This document shows, piece by piece, positions 3,443 to 11,261 of a stretch of DNA of 13,393 nucleotides. The notes beneath the pieces were generated by a model. It was not told where the DNA came from, ran no database searches, and worked only from the letters and a program-made list of their open reading frames with translations. Origin of the DNA: Stephanodiscus triporus (lineage: Eukaryota > Bacillariophyta > Thalassiosirophyceae > Thalassiosirales > Thalassiosiraceae). Location: positions 1 to 13,393 of the forward strand of contig JALLAZ010000938.1 of assembly GCA_036939755.1 (NCBI GenBank). The letters run 5' to 3'. Position 1 is the first letter of the stretch. Each line of letters starts with the position of its first letter. A program made the position numbers and the translations under genes.

Positions 3443-5299
3443 ATGGAAGCATCATTCTCAACAGCTGAGGAGATCTCGTTGTTGAGCAATCAATCCGCTG
3501 CGTCGGCAGCGAGATCCACCTACTGGGTGGCACCGTTACCCGTCGCAACTTCTGCTGACAACGGTCCACTCAAACTCACCCTATCAGCCTACTGTCGGCC
3601 GGAGACCGCGGTCCGTCTCACCGACGCCTGTCCTACTCAACTGATACACACTAAATATGAACTCCTTGACCCGTCCCGCTGCAGGACGCTCGGACACGGG
3701 GCCTCAAGCACGGTCAGACTAGCCTATCGCCGGAGCGACGGTGAGCCCGTGGCGGTCAAGACGATTGCCAAGCACGATGCGCTGGGTCTGTGGAGCAAGA
3801 CGAACCGATGGCAACTAGACGAGCATAAATCCTTGTCATCCTCGAGGGATGCTTTGGGGGAGTTGAGGCAGCAAGTGAAGAGAACACCAAGACTTGATGA
3901 GGTGGACGTCCTTATGTCACTAAGGGATAGTCCCAATGTCGTCCAGTTGCTTGATGTGTATGAGACGCATCAGGAAGTACAGTTAGTATTGGAATATTGC
4001 GAGGGCGGAGACCTATTTGACTGTATCAAGAGACGGAAGCAGCGGGAAGCGGAGCCAGATGTAACCAGTCCGCCCCCCCTCATACATGGAAGCTTTACCG
4101 AGCTTGAAACGGCAACGGTCGCCAAAACGTTGCTTAGTGTGTTGCGAATTCTTCATTCAAGGAACATCGTGCATCGGGATATTAAACCCGAGAATATTTT
4201 GCTCATGGAAGAAGATGACTGCATGGATCAACTTGGAGCAGTAAAATTGACGGACTTTGGACTAGCAAGATTGTTGCACGATGATAATGAATTATCTTCT
4301 TCCAAGGCAAGTGTAGTTTCAGAGGAGCTATCATCGAAGCTACGCAGCAGGGCATACAGCCGCGTCGGTTCTGACTACTACGCTGCCCCCGAAGTTCACA
4401 TGGGATTGGGATACGACACGCCAGTCGATATTTACTCCCTTGGTATCACGTTGTATGTATTGCTCTGTGGCACACCTCCCTCCTCAACGTCATACTTCAA
4501 GTCAGAAGATGCAGATTTTTCAGATGGAGATTCAAGCTGCGCGGCATCTGTGTGCGAAGATATCTCTCACTCAAGTGAATGCTCAAGTTCGTCAGAGCTG
4601 TTCCCATCTGAGCTACAGATTTCGCCCTTGGCCCAAGATCTCATATCCAAGATGATTCATCCTGATCCTGAAAAGAGGATTGTTGCTTCAGAGGCATTGA
4701 AGCATCAATGGATCATCAATCATTCGGTTCATGAAGATACAGCGAAGGTGATGCGTGTTACTTCAAGGCTTTCTTTGTGTTCGAGCAGTGACAGTTTAAG
4801 GCCGAGGACATTGTCACGAGCTGAGTCTGAGTCAATCCTTCGAATCGGACCTGCTCTGTCTGTGATACCGCCAAGTAACTCTCCCATGCCGATGGTCGCC
4901 AAGGTCCCAAGTGCCGGCCAAACTCCTGATGCTTCCATCATTCCCATGCCTTTCACTCCAAATAAAAATTCTACAGCGATTGGCCTCACCCTTGCTGATG
5001 TTTGCAGCAAGCTTGCCCCCTTGGTAAATCAGCTGCAGCATCAGAGGAAGCGAAGACGCTGTCATTCTCATGGTGAAATTTCGTGTCTTGTGTCTTCCAG
5101 GAAGAATTCACGAAGATGTGCTGTAGATAAACAGTCCAAGAAGAAGCGAATTGCACATGCCAAGAAAAAAGCTTGCATGGAGCTCGATGTGGTGCACACT
5201 TCGACCATGTTTGCACATAATAGGATAGAGCGGAGATTCAAGTCGCCTACTCTGTTTTACGGACCCCTATTGCCTCAACAGTCCAAAAGCCCAGCCTGA
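3443..5299 (+). CDS. Serine/threonine protein kinase, CAMK-like
   Basis: A 618-residue intron-free eukaryotic protein kinase. The glycine loop GHGASSTV lies at 84-91, with Ser at the third Gly position as in many CAMK kinases. The ATP-binding Lys is 106 in VAVK, the probable helix-C Glu is 153, the catalytic loop HRDIKPEN is 244-251, DFG is 271-273, and RVGSDYYAAPE ends the activation segment near 317. The helix-F motif reads DIYSLG (329-334) instead of the usual DxWSxG. All catalytic residues are present, so it should be active. The VGSxYYxAPE form and PEN catalytic loop favour the CAMK group; no EF-hands follow. Insertions lie between beta-3 and helix C (about 108-150), before helix E (198-218), in the activation segment (281-305, Ser-rich) and an acidic Ser-rich stretch before helix G (350-390). 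The C-terminal tail (about 430-618) is disordered and basic, with nuclear-signal-like KRRR (536-539) and KKKR...KKK (567-577). The exact subfamily and substrate are not recognisable. Confidence 0.9.
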   Translation: MEASFSTAEEISLLSNQSAASAARSTYWVAPLPVATSADNGPLKLTLSAYCRPETAVRLTDACPTQLIHTKYELLDPSRCRTLGHGASSTVRLAYRRSDGEPVAVKTIAKHDALGLWSKTNRWQLDEHKSLSSSRDALGELRQQVKRTPRLDEVDVLMSLRDSPNVVQLLDVYETHQEVQLVLEYCEGGDLFDCIKRRKQREAEPDVTSPPPLIHGSFTELETATVAKTLLSVLRILHSRNIVHRDIKPENILLMEEDDCMDQLGAVKLTDFGLARLLHDDNELSSSKASVVSEELSSKLRSRAYSRVGSDYYAAPEVHMGLGYDTPVDIYSLGITLYVLLCGTPPSSTSYFKSEDADFSDGDSSCAASVCEDISHSSECSSSSELFPSELQISPLAQDLISKMIHPDPEKRIVASEALKHQWIINHSVHEDTAKVMRVTSRLSLCSSSDSLRPRTLSRAESESILRIGPALSVIPPSNSPMPMVAKVPSAGQTPDASIIPMPFTPNKNSTAIGLTLADVCSKLAPLVNQLQHQRKRRRCHSHGEISCLVSSRKNSRRCAVDKQSKKKRIAHAKKKACMELDVVHTSTMFAHNRIERRFKSPTLFYGPLLPQQSKSPA

Positions 5300-5483: not shown

Positions 5484-6291
5484 TCAAGCAATCATGTCAT
5501 CGGCAATCACTTTGGCCTTATCAGCGCCATACAAATGTTCCCCAAGAGCGAGGGCGAACTTGAGGGCAGTGCCCGGACCTTTCGACGTAATCAAATTGCC
5601 CTGGACAACCACATCATCAGCGACAGGCGAAGACATTAACTTTAATAATCCTGGTGCAGGATAACAAGTGGCGCCCTCCCCAACCAATCCCTTGCCGGCA
5701 AGAACAATAGCCGGAGAAGCGCAAATAGCACCATATGCCTTCCCGGCGGCTTGTTGTTTTTCAAGGATAGAAATAAGTGCTGCCGAATCACGAAGATGCT
5801 CAGCTCCTGGCATTCCTCCCGGCAGCGCCACAAGATCCCAGTCTTGTCCAGTGGCCTCATCAATTGAAATGTCAGCCATAATCTGTTGAAAGATGCGCAC
5901 GTGAAAATCCATTCCGTATTAAATACATTCGTATTCGTAGGAATTCGCACTCAAACAAATATTCAATCGCGTCACATACTTTGATACCCCGGCTCATCTT
6001 GCACAAAAGTTCCCCACCAGGCTTGACCGATGCAACCACTACCTCGGCCCCAAACCGGGTGAGCGTATCAGTGATACACGTCGTTTCGATCTCCTCGCTA
6101 TCGTCGGCGATAGGAACGAGAACTCGCTTTGCGAATGATGACATGCTCAAGGTTGTTGATGAGGACGATGAAAAGCTGTTCTGGAAGTGGTTGTTGCTGA
6201 GGGGAGCTACGCGTAGGGCGCGGTAGGCTGCGAACGCGGATGATGATGATAATCTCCCGATCGATAGGGACAGTGCCATTATGGTTTTCAT
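5484..6291 (-). CDS. DJ-1/PfpI (ThiJ) family protein, two exons
   Basis: Exons are 6291-5980 and 5882-5484, giving 236 aa. The intron 5883-5979 (97 nt, phase 0) runs from GTATGT to CAACAG. The join reads SRGIK|IMADI, as expected for DJ-1. The conserved acid is Glu69 in SEEIET, the nucleophile is Cys158 in AICASPA on the nucleophile elbow, and SKGPGT (204-209) is the typical C-terminal motif. The His used by animal DJ-1 near the active site is replaced, the segment reading ATCYP (175-179), as I recall for plant-type DJ-1. Family members act as redox-sensitive cysteine proteins, with glyoxalase/deglycase activity debated. Residues 1-49 precede the core and contain SSSSAFAAYRALR (15-27), resembling a heterokont plastid presequence; Met50 is a possible cytosolic start. 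I chose the ATG at 6291 because it gives this full presequence; further in-frame codons lie upstream, so it is not proven. The gene converges with the kinase and diverges from the MAPK. Confidence 0.9.
5883..5979 (-). other. Intron of the DJ-1 gene
   Basis: Donor GTATGT at the 5979 end and acceptor CTTTCAACAG ending at 5883, read on the minus strand; 97 nt, phase 0. Joining the exons restores the DJ-1 motif order without gap or insertion. Translating through it instead yields unrelated sequence and breaks the domain. Confidence 0.9.
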
Positions 6292-6780
6292 GGTCTGCCG
6301 CCCTTCTCCACAGAGAAGTGTCAGTGACAGCGAAAAAAGATATGGTATTGTAGGGTCTCCTACGTAGATATCTACCATCGAGGCGTTGATGGTACTACAG
6401 TCTCCAGTACAATTGCACCAGGGGAAAAATCGAGATTTTCCCTTTGTACTGTTCCTACAGTAGCTGTCCACGAGAAGCTAGGGGAAGCTAGTGGTTCCCC
6501 TTACAAAGGGAAATATCTCGATTTTTCCCCTTGTGCAATTGTACTGGAGACTGTAGTAGTACTACTCTATGATATCTTTTTTCCTCAGCGCGAATCCAAG
6601 AGAGTGAATGAAAGTGACGGACACAAACCACCATGCCGCGGTTGGTGAAACTAGATATCTAGCTATGCCGACCAACCCACCACCAAAGTTCTTGCGAAAT
6701 CGGGAGCCTGGCAGTGCAGATGCCTTTGATTAGACCATAAACCATAGCGAATTTGTTCGTTATTACTTTCTTTGAAAAAC
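6292..6780. promoter_or_regulatory. Divergent promoter region between DJ-1 and MAPK
   Basis: This 489-bp spacer lies between two divergent start codons, so it must hold both promoters and 5' leaders. About half is a complex foldback element (6332-6583). Two 12-bp palindromes share the core TAGATATCTA: GTAGATATCTAC at 6364-6375 and CTAGATATCTAG at 6651-6662. Another palindrome, TGTCAGTGACA (6319-6329), abuts the element. The second 12-mer sits inside a larger inverted pair, GGTTGGT (6640-6646) and ACCAACC (6670-6676). No TATA box is evident. Whether the sites are bound by regulators is inference. Confidence 0.5.
6332..6583. mobile_element. Foldback/MITE-like element in the divergent promoter
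   Basis: The arms at 6392-6448 and 6502-6562 are almost perfect reverse complements over 57 bp: one substitution, one 3-nt and one 1-nt indel. The 53-nt loop itself carries a 7-bp stem (AGGGGAA 6480-6486 with TTCCCCT 6495-6501) and a direct repeat GAAGCTAG. Further out, the 12-mer GAAAAAAGATAT (6332-6343) has its exact reverse complement at 6572-6583, which suggests terminal inverted repeats of an element of about 252 bp. No clear target-site duplication and no coding capacity. Because DJ-1 starts at 6291, part of the hairpin may be transcribed in its 5' leader. Confidence 0.7.
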
Positions 6781-9726
6781 ATGTCAGGGAATGACGTGTA
6801 TGGCGTTGACAACGACGACGTTGCTCTGACAGAAGATAAGGTGAACAATCCAGGGCAAGAGCACGTGGGAGCTGCAATGAATGGGAAGGAACAAAGGGAT
6901 ACAGAATCATCGGCCTTGGCCGATACGGCTGATCACTCTAATAATGACTTGAAAAATATACATTCTGTAGGAGAAGTTGCAGAGCTAACTACGACTTTGG
7001 CAGAATCCGATGACAAGGAGGACAATGCGACCCCCCTTCCTACATTAAAGGACAAACCATTGAAGCGTCTATCCACTTCTGTTGAAAGAGTTGATCTTGA
7101 ATATTCTCTCGGACCTCTAGATTTGGCGCCATCAAACATCGAATCATCGGTCCCTTCCCCAACAGCATCGGCGAAGAGAAAAAAGATAGCACCCATGGCA
7201 CCCATGAACTCTGTGGAAGAGGCATTGATGCCGAAGTTTTGGCAAGATTCAGCATCCGTTAGCCAGAATAACATTGCTTCAGCTAGCTTTGATGTGGCCG
7301 AAGAAGAGTGTGGTACCTCGCCTTTGTCTGTGGAGGGTGTAGGTGTGCCAGTTGGGGAAGAGAACGCGGGTAGGATTATGGAGGCAGAAGAAGTGATGAG
7401 AGTTGCAACTCTTGCTGCGCAAGCAGACGGTACTAGTGAAGTCCTGGGGATTGAATCAAAAGGAAAGACAGCCGATGAAGTCAACGATTTCGATGACGTC
7501 GCTAGACAAGTTCAAGTTAGCATGCGAGAAAATGGCAGTGACGGCTCGAATAGCTTTTCGTCGGGATCGTCCTTTGTCGAATCCTACATTCTAGAAGATG
7601 AATACAGCATGCCTCTTCCGCCTGCACCACCCTCCACCCCAGCAGCGCCAAGAGATGCATTCGCACCGCTCCCATTTCAGGCATGTGTTACTCGTGGTAG
7701 GCTGTCGTATGGCGATGAGCTCAGACGTGATGAGTTAAATAGTGGCGATCAAGAGCATGTAAATCCTCTTTCAACTACATCTCATCACGAAGATAATTTG
7801 TCTCTACCTCTATCCTCTAGTAACGAGGATAAAACGCAACAGTCTGAAGAAAGTACTCCCTCCCGTTCACGACTGTCACAGAAACACCATGCAGAAGCAC
7901 CACCACCGGATCTTTCAGGAGCAGTCACTGAGCCACGAAGGGGAAACAGCTACCATACCGGCAAACCGAGACCAAGTCAGAGCACCCAGTCTGATTTTGA
8001 CAAATGGGATGTAGGAGATCGATATCAATTGCACAGAATCCTTGGTCGAGGATCGTACGGGGAGGTCGCTCAGGCGATAGACTTACAAGCCGCTGCATCA
8101 CATCAAAAAACAGATGGAGTGCAGGGTACCCCTCAGCAGAGTCGCTCGGCATATGTCGCTGTGAAGAGGATTTCCAAAGCCTTCGATCAGGAAGTCGATG
8201 CGATACGCCTTTTTCGAGAAATGCATATATTGAGGAGATTGAGGGGGCATCCGTGCGTTATCCAACTGGTTGATGTTGTTCAGCCTCGCAGTTCTGATTT
8301 AGAACATTTTCATGATCTCTACCTCGTTTTCGAGTATGTGGACACGGATTTATACAAGTTGATAATGTCTCCCCAATACCTCACAACAGAGCATATACAA
8401 ACATTTCTCTACCAGATGCTTGTTGGCCTCAAGTATATACATTGTTCCTCTGGTGAGTTTAATTATCATTCAAACACATCAGGGATATTATTACACTGCT
8501 GTTTATACTTAGGCCAATGCATTGGAATCTCCAGTAATTCACAGGGACCTCAAACCTGCGTGAGTATATCTGTTCCGTTAGTCTCGTCATACCTTTGAGC
8601 TCAACCTCAATCGACCTCTTTGTCCACTTTCTCTTGATGTTTACTGGGCATTATTTTAGCAAGTAAGTAGTTTTTTGCGAACACGAGGATCGCTGCCCAT
8701 CTTAGATTTCTACTAACACCTGTGTCATTTCAATTGTTGCATTTGCAGTATACTTCTGAACGAAGATTGCACCCTAAAAATTTGTGATTTTGGTCTTGCA
8801 AGAATTGTTCACAATAACAAATTATCACTGCCTACAGTAGCACTGAGAGCTGATGCCAATGACTTGATGGCTGGCTCGTCAATGCAAACGGTGCATGACG
8901 TTGCAGACGACGCACCACGTCCCAACTTATCGCGACAACTAACGAAGCATGTTGTGACACGCTGGTATCGCGCCCCTGAATTAATCCTAATACAGCCATA
9001 TGCATCGGCGGTTGATATTTGGAGCTTGGGATGTATCTTTGGCGAGTTACTGAGCATGCAAGAAGGAAGTGTTCCTAATTACCAAGAACGCGTTCCTCTT
9101 TTCCCGGGAGGTTCTTGTTACCCACTGTCTGGAGATCATGTCTCGACAGATACCAAAGAGCGGCAAGATCAACTGAGTGTCATATTTAGCGTGATAGGCA
9201 TGCCATCGGAAGAGGACCTTATGTCTGTCGGAAAGGTAAGACCCTCCTGAGCTTGTTTGATGAAACGTCCTTGTATGTTTCGAAAGTTAAATATTTATTT
9301 ATGATACACACCGTTGCATCAGGCCAATGAATACGTAAGCACTCTCAAAAAGAAACCAGGAAGAAGTTTGGAATCACTTTATCCTGCTGCAGATCCGGCA
9401 GCCATCGATTTGTTGAAGAAAATGCTTATGTTCAACCCAGCGAAAAGATGCACAGCAGAGGAAGCTTTAGATCATGAATTCTTGAAACATGTTAGAATGA
9501 ATTTGGACGTAAGTTTAAGTTGTATTGTGGTTCATTCTCTTTATTTCTATGTAGATCCTTTGAGGACAACGCCTAAGATATTTTGTTCGCTTCATTCTTT
9601 CCTGAATAGTTTTGCGCGGCACGACCTTTGGAAAGTCCGGAGTTTCTGGAAAAGAATAAAATCGATGTTGCCACAATAAAGGAAGAAACTTACAAGGAGG
9701 TGATGTGGTACCAACAGAATCCCTGA
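6781..9726 (+). CDS. MAP kinase with TKH activation motif, six exons including a 3-nt exon
   Basis: Proposed exons: 6781-8452, 8535-8559, 8660-8662, 8749-9235, 9323-9508, 9610-9726. They sum to 2490 nt, i.e. 829 aa plus TGA. Residues 1-410 are a disordered acidic Ser/Thr-rich extension with a nuclear-signal-like AKRKK (131-135) and a Pro-rich stretch from 278. The kinase domain follows: glycine loop GRGSYGEV (422-429), Lys462 in AVK, helix-C Glu480, catalytic loop VIHRDLKPAN (558-567), DFG 580-582, APE 642-644. TRWYRAPE and the C-terminal lobe motifs (LFPGGSCYPL, DLLKKMLMFNPAKR, EEALDHEFL) place it in the MAPK family. The dual-phosphorylation site reads T632-K633-H634 rather than TxY, and about 45 residues precede it in an enlarged activation loop. 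Both features recall the TSH-type MAPK (Map2) of Plasmodium. The start is the ATG at 6781 with A at -3. All introns are GT-AG. An AATAAA at 9828-9833 could serve as poly(A) signal. Confidence 0.9.
8453..8534 (+). other. MAPK intron 1
   Basis: 82 nt, phase 1, GTGAGT to CTCCAG. The nearer acceptor at 8512 would put the next exon out of frame. Only the AG at 8534 gives KYIHCSS|VIHRDLKP, matching the conserved MAPK catalytic region without a gap. Confidence 0.85.
8535..8559 (+). other. MAPK exon 2, a 25-nt microexon
   Basis: It begins after CTCCAG at 8534 and ends before GTGAGT at 8560. It encodes the last two bases of V558, then I H R D L K P and the first two bases of A566, so it carries the catalytic Asp562. 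Skipping it would shift the frame, since 25 is not divisible by 3, and remove the catalytic Asp. Confidence 0.85.
8660..8662 (+). other. MAPK exon 3, a 3-nt microexon (CAA)
   Basis: The context is TTATTTTAG|CAA|GTAAGTAG: a consensus acceptor and a consensus donor with three bases between. With it, GC+C and AA+T give Ala566-Asn567, restoring the invariant HRDLKPAN. Without it, exon 2 joined to 8749 gives KPAILL, in frame but missing the Mg-binding Asn. The 189-nt span 8560-8748 would be about twice any other intron here (81-101 nt). Split by this exon it becomes introns of 100 and 86 nt. RNA data are not available, so this remains a strong prediction. Confidence 0.8.
8663..8748 (+). other. MAPK intron 3 with consensus branch point
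   Basis: 86 nt from GTAAGT to TTTGCAG, with a perfect TACTAAC branch-point sequence at 8711-8717, 31 nt before the acceptor. The preceding intron 2 is 8560-8659 (100 nt, GTGAGT to TTTTAG). Confidence 0.8.
9236..9322 (+). other. MAPK intron 4
   Basis: 87 nt, phase 0, GTAAGA to GCATCAG. The join reads SVGK|ANEYVSTL and keeps the kinase C-lobe intact. Confidence 0.85.
9509..9609 (+). other. MAPK intron 5
   Basis: 101 nt, phase 0, GTAAGT to GAATAG. It joins RMNLD to FCAARPLESPEF, and the last exon ends EVMWYQQNP before TGA at 9724-9726, a normal MAPK-like C-terminus (EV followed by an aromatic and N/P near the end). Confidence 0.8.
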
Positions 9727-9879: not shown

Positions 9880-10893
9880 TTATTTGGGATTGTTGCTGTA
9901 ATCACGGTCACCAAAGATGGTTGATCCAACTCTAACACTTGTCGCACCCTTGGCAATCGCGACCTCGAAGTCACCTGACATCCCCATGCTCAATTCCAAG
10001 TCATTCGGATCCCGATCCAATATTGAAGCCACCTCATCACGACATAGGCGCAAGATATCAAAGCAAGAGTCATCCCCCGGCGCCCCAATCGTCATTAGTC
10101 CGTCAATTGAAAGCCATGAACATTCCTCGGATATTTTTTTGACCAGATCAGCTACTTCACAACCCGGTGATACTCCGCTTTTTGACTCTTCCCCACTAGT
10201 ATTGACTTGGATATAAATGCCCAACTTTTTCTTCTCCTCGACGTCCTTGTTCATTGTCTCCACTGCGCGGTTCAATTTTTCCGCTAATTTGACAGTGCTA
10301 ACCGTTTCAATGCAAGCAAGTTTGTTCAAACCGACGGCTTTCACGAGTGGCGCGGCCTTATTGGATTGAAGTGGTCCGATGAAATGCCAGGATACGTCGT
10401 CTGGTAATTCGCTCGCCTTGGTCATGAGTTCTTGGGCGTAATTTTCTCCAAAATAACGTTGACCATTCTGTGAATAAAAACAGGTATCGTCGTCATTAGT
10501 TTTGTTCTCCGTGAATTACATGCAACAATTCTGGTAAGCCCAGCTCACCTCATAGGCCGCTTGCAGAAACTCCAGCGGCTTCGTCTTCGATACCGCCACG
10601 AGCCTCACGCTTCCTGGAGGGCGATCGTTAGCTGCCACGGCATCACCCATCCGTTGTCTCACAGACGCTATGTTCGATGCGATATCCACTGCAATATCTG
10701 CATCCGAAGATGTTGACGCCGACATAACGAAAACGGAGGGAATTGCAGGGCGAGATGATACGGCGAATGCGAGCGGTGGGCGGAGTGCGGGTCCAAGTAT
10801 TCTCGATAGTGTTGATGAATAATATGCTGAGAATGGAGTGCGAAGGGCCGCAAATGCTGTGTATGCTGCAACTCCATGTCCGCCCATGGCCAT
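9880..10893 (-). CDS. YggS/PLPBP family PLP homeostasis protein, two exons
   Basis: Exons are 10893-10549 and 10467-9880, giving 310 aa. This non-catalytic fold-type III PLP-binding protein (YggS in bacteria, PROSC/PLPBP in animals) buffers pyridoxal phosphate supply. The PLP Schiff-base Lys is Lys103 in AVSKTKP. The family motifs follow in order: FGENYAQEL (121-129), WHFIGPLQSNK (142-152), LSIDGLMTIG, SMGMSGDFEVAI (275-286) and the phosphate-binding RVGSTIFG (294-301). The intron falls in AAYE|NGQRYFGEN at phase 0, an exact fit. Residues 1 to about 65 precede the family core, are Ala/Ser/Arg-rich with no acidic residue before about 63, and include YTAFAALRTPF (11-21), suggesting import into plastid or mitochondrion. 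Met57 is an alternative, cytosolic start. The ATG at 10893 is the first Met in the frame; the farther upstream frame begins only with TTG. Confidence 0.92.
10468..10548 (-). other. Intron of the PLPBP gene
   Basis: 81 nt, phase 0, minus-strand donor GTGAGC and acceptor TTATTCACAG. The join restores the AAYExGQRYFGENY signature of the family. Confidence 0.9.
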
Positions 10894-10920
10894 CGATGTT
10901 TTGTGGCGCAGAGTAGTACT

Positions 10921-11261
10921 GTACTGTACGTTTGACCTCAATTGGCAACTCGGTTTCTAAATATCGAGAATTCTGGCCTCAGACCCACTTAGATATTGTA
11001 GTGCAAGTGAAATAATAGGAAGTCCCACTTGGGGCATGGTTTGGGGACATAAACTGAACATCTCTCTCAAAACCCAACTCATGAATTGAGGGAGCTTATT
11101 TCTCGGCCCCTGCCCATGGGGTCGTCACCAGCAATAGTTTATACCACCCTTGACTCAATGGGGGGTGGTATAAACTATTAAGTTTGGTCGTGGCCCTCCT
11201 AACAGCTGAGAAATAGCTCCGTCAATTAAGGGGTTGCCAATTGAGGTCAAATGTACAGTAG
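10921..11261. mobile_element. Foldback element next to the PLPBP start
   Basis: Terminal inverted repeats of 28 bp with one mismatch: 10922-10949 (begins TACTGTACGTTTGACC) and 11233-11260. A second, perfect 17-bp stem lies near the middle: AATAGTTTATACCACCC (11133-11149) and its complement (11163-11179). Between these, the left sequence AATTGAGGGAGCTTATTTCTC (about 11084-11104) pairs imperfectly with the right-hand GAGAAATAGCTCCGTCAATT (about 11206-11226). The left half holds about 135 bp (roughly 10950-11083) with no counterpart on the right, as if something had inserted between CAACTC repeats. No transposase. Its left end lies 27 nt upstream of the PLPBP ATG, so it probably contributes promoter or 5' leader. 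Confidence 0.7.

Follow-up and report, generated by a model that had tools for sequence, protein, structure and literature searches.

In a diatom gene for a MAPK-like kinase, the three bases CAA at 8660-8662 very probably form an exon; it is predicted to be present in most transcripts and to supply the catalytic-loop residue Asn567. Exons of 3 nt and even of 1 nt are already known; what stands out here is the residue, the catalytic-loop Asn. In protein kinases, this Asn binds a catalytic metal.

Gene model and splice paths through the catalytic loop

The gene lies at 6781-9726 on the forward strand of the window, as we call the whole 13,393-nt stretch of DNA analysed, and its product of 829 residues consists of a long N-terminal extension followed by the kinase domain. 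Direct reading bore out the six-exon coding sequence of 2490 nt given in the original prediction: the exons (1672, 25, 3, 487, 186 and 117 nt) join without an internal stop, and all five introns (82, 100, 86, 87 and 101 nt) are GT-AG, with introns 2 and 3, at 100 and 86 nt, similar in length to the others as had been stated. The parts of the gene are as follows.

6781..8452, + strand: exon 1 (1672 nt), coding for the N-terminal extension and the N-lobe of the kinase up to YIHCSS; the kinase part is the PF00069 match
8453..8534, + strand: intron 1 (82 nt), GTGAGT..CAG
8535..8559, + strand: exon 2 (25 nt), remainder of a Val codon, IHRDLKP and bases 1-2 of Ala566
8560..8659, + strand: intron 2 (100 nt), GTGAGT..TTTTAG
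8660..8662, + strand: predicted exon 3 (3 nt, CAA), base 3 of Ala566 and bases 1-2 of Asn567
8663..8748, + strand: intron 3 (86 nt), GTAAGT..TTTGCAG, with a branch-point-like CTAAC about 33 nt 5' of exon 4
8664..8666, + strand: overlapping alternative 3-nt exon TAA, GCAAG-TAA-GTAGTT, with weaker sites and the protein unchanged
8749..9235, + strand: exon 4 (487 nt), ILLNEDC..DFG..LTKHVVTRWYRAPE..
9236..9322, + strand: intron 4 (87 nt)
9323..9508, + strand: exon 5 (186 nt)
9509..9609, + strand: intron 5 (101 nt)
9610..9726, + strand: exon 6 (117 nt), contains the stop codon

Positions 8654-8668 read TTTTAGCAAGTAAGT, and CAA is indeed flanked by TTTTAG and GTAAGT in the interval between exon 2 and 8749. 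Joining 8559 directly to 8749 gives HRDLKPAILLNED, which lacks the Asn, as the original prediction had noted. With CAA included, the codons at the junction are GCC AAT (Ala566-Asn567); with CAA skipped, they are GCT ATA (Ala566-Ile), confirming that skipping would remove Asn567 alone and keep the frame. The exon had been described as encoding the Asn. It would supply Asn567, but CAA is not itself an Asn codon and would instead complete Ala566 and start Asn567. By its length of 3 nt and its position between introns of 100 and 86 nt, it would fall among the microexons (here 1-15 nt, between two introns); exon 2, at 25 nt, is also very short.

Splice paths were listed from 8535 to acceptors below 8790, with introns of at least 40 nt and with GC and AT donors and AC acceptors included, giving 387 one-intron and 10,089 two-intron paths. 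Exactly one open GT-AG path with a single intron kept HRDLKP, and this was the Asn-less skip; the listing thus ruled out a one-intron model that uses another donor or another acceptor. Six open GT-AG paths with two introns were found, two of which restored the Asn. Three paths in all fitted HRDLKPxN..NEDC, namely CAA at 8660-8662, TAA at 8664-8666 and a non-canonical 10-nt exon, the last of which gives HRDLKPLNLILNED with the altered loop PLNLILN. Within 8560-8748, only a 3-nt exon yields HRDLKPANILLNED, and CAA, predicted to do so, is the sole solution with consensus sites.

As a null model, we used dinucleotide shuffles of the interval (n = 20,000; both introns at least 50 nt). Any AG-NAA-GT arose in 259 of the 20,000 shuffles, YAG together with GTRAG in three, and YAG-NAA-GTRAGT in one. 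A triplet with these sites is unlikely by chance, at about 1e-4, and the canonical sites on its two sides (TTTTAG and GTAAGT; 1 in 20,000 shuffles) go beyond chance. As such triplets are rare with consensus sites and commoner without them, the signal rests on splice-site quality together with the restoration of the expected residue.

The assembly was scanned as a whole (21.65 Mb, 1324 contigs). The exact 15-mer TTTTAGCAAGTAAGT had one match, plus one with a single mismatch, compared with two and three for the reversed control; the single-mismatch match lies in locus L040, at C57:21513-21527. Matches to YAGNAAGTRAGT numbered 43 on the two strands (24 + 19) against 53 (26 + 27) for the reversed control, a frequency of about 1e-6 per base and strand or about 2e-4 per 189 nt; with this lack of enrichment, nothing suggests that NAA 3-nt exons form a large class. 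No copies of introns 2-3 were found in the assembly besides the gene itself, leaving a gain by a repeat family unsupported.

The kinase domain matches PF00069 at 184.7 bits (curated cut-off 31.7). Its VAVK, HRD, DFG and APE motifs are intact, and the catalytic Lys, HRD, Asn, DFG and APE are all present in the spliced protein, the Asn only when the triplet is included. The gene had been called a MAP kinase. Its closest named relatives are indeed MAPKs, judged by source names and the PDB matches listed, but its activation loop (8942-8950, exon 4) reads TKH rather than the TxY of classical MAP kinases, so that MAPK-like is the fitting term. Among the 240 matched of the 265 related proteins listed, TKH occurs in 216, another TxH in 22 and TGY in two. 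The best solved match, 3rp9 (by name a mitogen-activated protein kinase), shows TGH at this place and aligns the same Asn, and the 60 PDB matches listed are all MAPK-named except 3nie (MAP2 kinase) and 3n9x (Phosphotransferase). A regular expression for the catalytic loop, which misses divergent loops, was run over 81 loci of the assembly (285 kb, overlapping) and found 22 loops; in 19 of them the Asn is contiguous, and the remaining three are interrupted by an intron. By eye, the Asn of the other two split loops (L071 and L075) apparently comes from the next ordinary exon; only the window's kinase among the 22 needs a microexon for it.

Catalytic loops and intron ends in related diatoms

Three protein searches, each taken to the best 120 of several thousand matches, gave 265 distinct proteins. 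Among the matches listed, the closest full-length relative comes from Cyclostephanos tholiformis (74.5% over 757 residues), so that the source of the window most likely belongs to the diatom order Thalassiosirales. A readable HRDxKP loop is present in 155 of the 265, and 152 of these have the Asn in the expected position. The other three are all genome gene models, and each reads HRDLKPAILLNED, identical to the skip product of the window.

P0121: Cyclostephanos tholiformis, ACHAXA_010598, Asn-less gene model
P0123: Thalassiosira sp. AJA248-18, ACHAXR_008376, Asn-less gene model
P0082: CCRYP_014493-RC, probably Cyclotella cryptica (the species for which we take the CCRYP prefix to stand), Asn-less gene model

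Gene finders place introns at GT or GC donors and AG acceptors. Given this rule, models reading HRDLKPAILLNED point, most likely, to a donor immediately after ..GC and an acceptor immediately before T ATA in each of the three genomes, that is, outer sites as in the window and an Asn codon in neither flanking exon. The genome models of Thalassiosira profunda (P0127, which groups with the window in the tree below) and Skeletonema menzelii (P0130) do contain the Asn, so either the arrangement varies or the exon was picked up by some of the pipelines.

Other sequences are closer to transcripts. P0122, P0124 and P0125 (872, 894 and 907 residues) have longest contigs of 2793, 3375 and 2880 nt; as these barely exceed the reading frames, they are probably spliced RNA, with intronless genes also possible. 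All three have the Asn, as do all MMETSP-named and CAMPEP-named sequences among the matches listed. No transcript-like sequence among these matches lacked the Asn, and none was traced to a species with the triplet.

Intron ends could be read in several frames. Seventeen exon-4 frames without HRD, apparently genomic, read xSIL(L/V/I)NED with varying residues before it. If the Ser is AGT, these frames appear to start after an AG (AG followed by T ATH) at the acceptor base of the window's intron 3. Three pairs among them are more than 95% alike, so the 17 frames represent fewer than 17 species, and one of them, P0164, is 99.4% identical to exon 4 of C. tholiformis. Five further frames start at MNEDC and P0112 starts at LLNEDC, and nothing upstream is visible in these. 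Together, the Asn-less models and the 17 frames suggest that the outer splice sites are conserved and that the exon was probably missed by annotation. An exon 2 ending in GCNAA would, however, equally account for the 17 frames; the outer junction is seen in three models and the exon-4 acceptor in the 17 frames, and the triplet itself is read in one species. Searches of genome and viral contig collections returned no DNA of the relatives, and the donor-junction pattern had no match in the viral contigs.

For two exon-4 frames, exon and intron ends did not agree in their likeness to the window. P0158 matches exon 4 (8749-9235) at 99.4%, yet its preceding intron end differs (FSRS versus CICS), and P0161 is only 89% like exon 4, yet has the same intron end as the window. 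This mismatch may reflect recombination or a chimeric contig.

A different arrangement is suggested by two sequences, P0047, which reads VRNILLNED and is Skeletonema-like (97.7% to P0129 and 93.6% to P0130 of S. menzelii), and P0136, a Thalassiosira exigua model that reads MFSNILLNED, lacks any HRD loop and is outside the 155. Both are consistent with an AG directly before NAAY, which would mean that they have intron 2 but lack intron 3, and they apparently share the acceptor position of intron 2 with the window. In P0148, the loop is contiguous with exon 1 on a 16.9-kb contig, which is probably genomic for that reason and indicates that introns 1-3 can all be missing. The architecture therefore differs within the order, between the xSILLNED frames, P0047 and P0136, and P0148.

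A tree was built from 49 rows hand-picked from the 265 proteins and the window, some frames having kept read-through intron letters at their 3' ends. A supported group of 30 (99/96) holds the window, the 17 frames, P0121, P0123, P0136 and P0127, and also P0122, P0124 and P0125; P0082 together with P0112, and the Skeletonema rows, fall outside it. The xSILLNED label changes four times on the tree, three of these changes being forced by supported branches. With P0082 outside and T. exigua inside, losses or repeated gains of intron 3 are possible.

Competing readings and a proposed order of splicing

That a 3-nt exon supplies the catalytic-loop Asn, the central claim of the original prediction, is well supported by the single consensus-site solution, the chance of about 1e-4, the Asn in 152 of 155 loops and the junction of the three models. 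The microexon is most likely constitutive, judging from the sequences compared. The three Asn-less models argue the other way, as they could also mean real skipping or loss of the Asn. In a regulated switch, the triplet would be left out in some conditions to give a full-length, probably catalytically dead kinase without Asn567. At 3 nt the exon is in frame and its skip would cost exactly one residue, and the skip path has good GT-AG sites. Moreover, the C. cryptica annotation was produced with MAKER from transcriptome and protein evidence and included a search for alternative splicing, according to the excerpted text of PMC7466962, and the suffix -RC of one Asn-less model perhaps marks one among several isoforms. 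However, the same model results when an aligner fails to place 3 nt, and we infer that alignment-based annotation would drop such an exon and that P0082 stems from the annotation of PMC7466962. The Asn-less rows listed are genome models alone (three of the 155 loops), as expected from a gene finder, and the MMETSP and CAMPEP rows all have the Asn. The switch of one residue that had been put forward is thus unsupported, and we regard it as improbable. A kill switch shared across the Thalassiosirales, with splicing setting the ratio of active kinase to a dead, partner-binding decoy, would likewise be improbable.

The remaining readings keep less of the weight. TAA (8664-8666) used in place of CAA, or alongside it, would restore the same protein, HRDLKPAN, through GCT AAT, but its acceptor GCAAG and donor GTAGTT are unlike those of the other introns (CAG or TAG, GTRAG), and CAA directly follows the first AG and is followed by a full GTAAGT donor, making this use of TAA very unlikely. 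It is harder still to believe that the kinase truly belongs to an Asn-less lineage in the Thalassiosirales and that the splice-like triplet is a coincidence. Three genome models without Asn would fit such a lineage, but a triplet with these sites has a chance of about 1e-4, VAVK, HRD, DFG and APE are intact, and probable transcripts of the same clade carry the Asn. An error of assembly or base calling, with the Asn in a normal exon of the true genome, is scarcely credible even for a single draft assembly: such an error would need to produce an acceptor and a donor that match, as well as the 189-nt interval, and the junction is common to the models of three genomes and the exon-4 acceptor to the 17 frames of relatives.

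For a constitutive CAA exon, exon definition would be implausible, as 3 nt would hardly be recognisable as a unit. Introns 2 and 3 are thus probably removed stepwise by intron definition. Either order of removal would end in inclusion, because only direct excision from 8560 to 8748 skips CAA, and intron 3, with its full GTAAGT and CTAAC, may leave first. Intron 3 may have been gained (or lost elsewhere) three bases downstream of intron 2; given the Skeletonema-like and T. exigua sequences, which appear to have intron 2 but no intron 3, the triplet would be a remnant between the two introns.

Other ultra-short exons and neighbouring genes

Exons of comparable size are described in several papers, cited here from excerpts of their text. 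Drosophila homothorax (hth) has a 3-bp micro-exon, and NCAM and troponin T are listed with it as further 3-nt cases (PMC7392893). Like the diatom triplet, the homothorax exon measures 3 nt and keeps the frame, and it is conserved clade-wide; unlike it, the homothorax exon is produced from a 48-nt exon by alternative splicing, and its place is between two domains (PMC7392893). The diatom triplet was found without a longer form and sits in a catalytic loop. In Arabidopsis APC11, a single-nucleotide exon missed by annotation was experimentally found to be constitutive, and stepwise removal by intron definition was argued for, the second intron leaving first at the 9-nt exon of potato invertase (PMC4674806). 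The diatom exon resembles it in being ultra-short and probably missed by annotation, with stepwise intron removal proposed for both, but in the plant gene a skip of 1 nt shifts the frame, whereas a 3-nt skip would keep it. Closest in its route of discovery is Fusarium CYP621A, whose one-nucleotide exon in the P450 PKG motif came to light because a conserved motif could not be built without it; that exon occurs in orthologues across species and is confirmed by transcript reads (PMC12940212), whereas the diatom exon is of 3 nt and predicted. Plant microexons of 1-15 nt are conserved and widely missed by annotation, and the three leading host motifs in Chlamydomonas include Pkinase (PMC8831610); these belong to the green lineage, and the excerpt of that paper names no catalytic-loop Asn case and no diatom. 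In searches of the open-access literature, we found no micro-exon in a diatom kinase and no microexon in the catalytic loop of a protein kinase; what turned up for microexons together with diatoms dealt, judging by its title, with synapse proteins, or else with rice micro-exons and a diatom proteome as separate subjects.

If real, this would be a near-minimal exon in a diatom that carries a residue indispensable to the enzyme, so that standard gene models make an active kinase look dead. Three public diatom models apparently do so already, with consequences for automated pseudokinase lists and diatom signalling annotations. The gene would also offer a clean natural test of the spliceosome on two introns three bases apart.

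Several other features lie near the MAPK-like kinase gene in the window.

3443-5299, + strand: second protein kinase gene, upstream and on the same strand, a single frame of 618 aa (PF00069, 191.7 bits)
5484-6471, - strand: gene of the DJ-1/PfpI family, spread over two reading frames that overlap and match PF01965 at profile positions 1-49 and 47-162
9880-10425, - strand: reading frame that encodes an alanine-racemase N-terminal domain (PF01168)
10516-10941, - strand: frame with no Pfam match
6393-6558: inverted repeat just upstream of the MAPK-like kinase gene, with arms of 53 nt, 92% complementary, spaced 60 nt apart

The DJ-1/PfpI gene is probably split by an intron; the first of its two matches scores 24.8 bits, under the cut-off of 26.6. 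The frame at 9880-10425 presumably resembles the YggS/PLPBP pyridoxal-phosphate protein, and the inverted repeat is perhaps a small mobile element.
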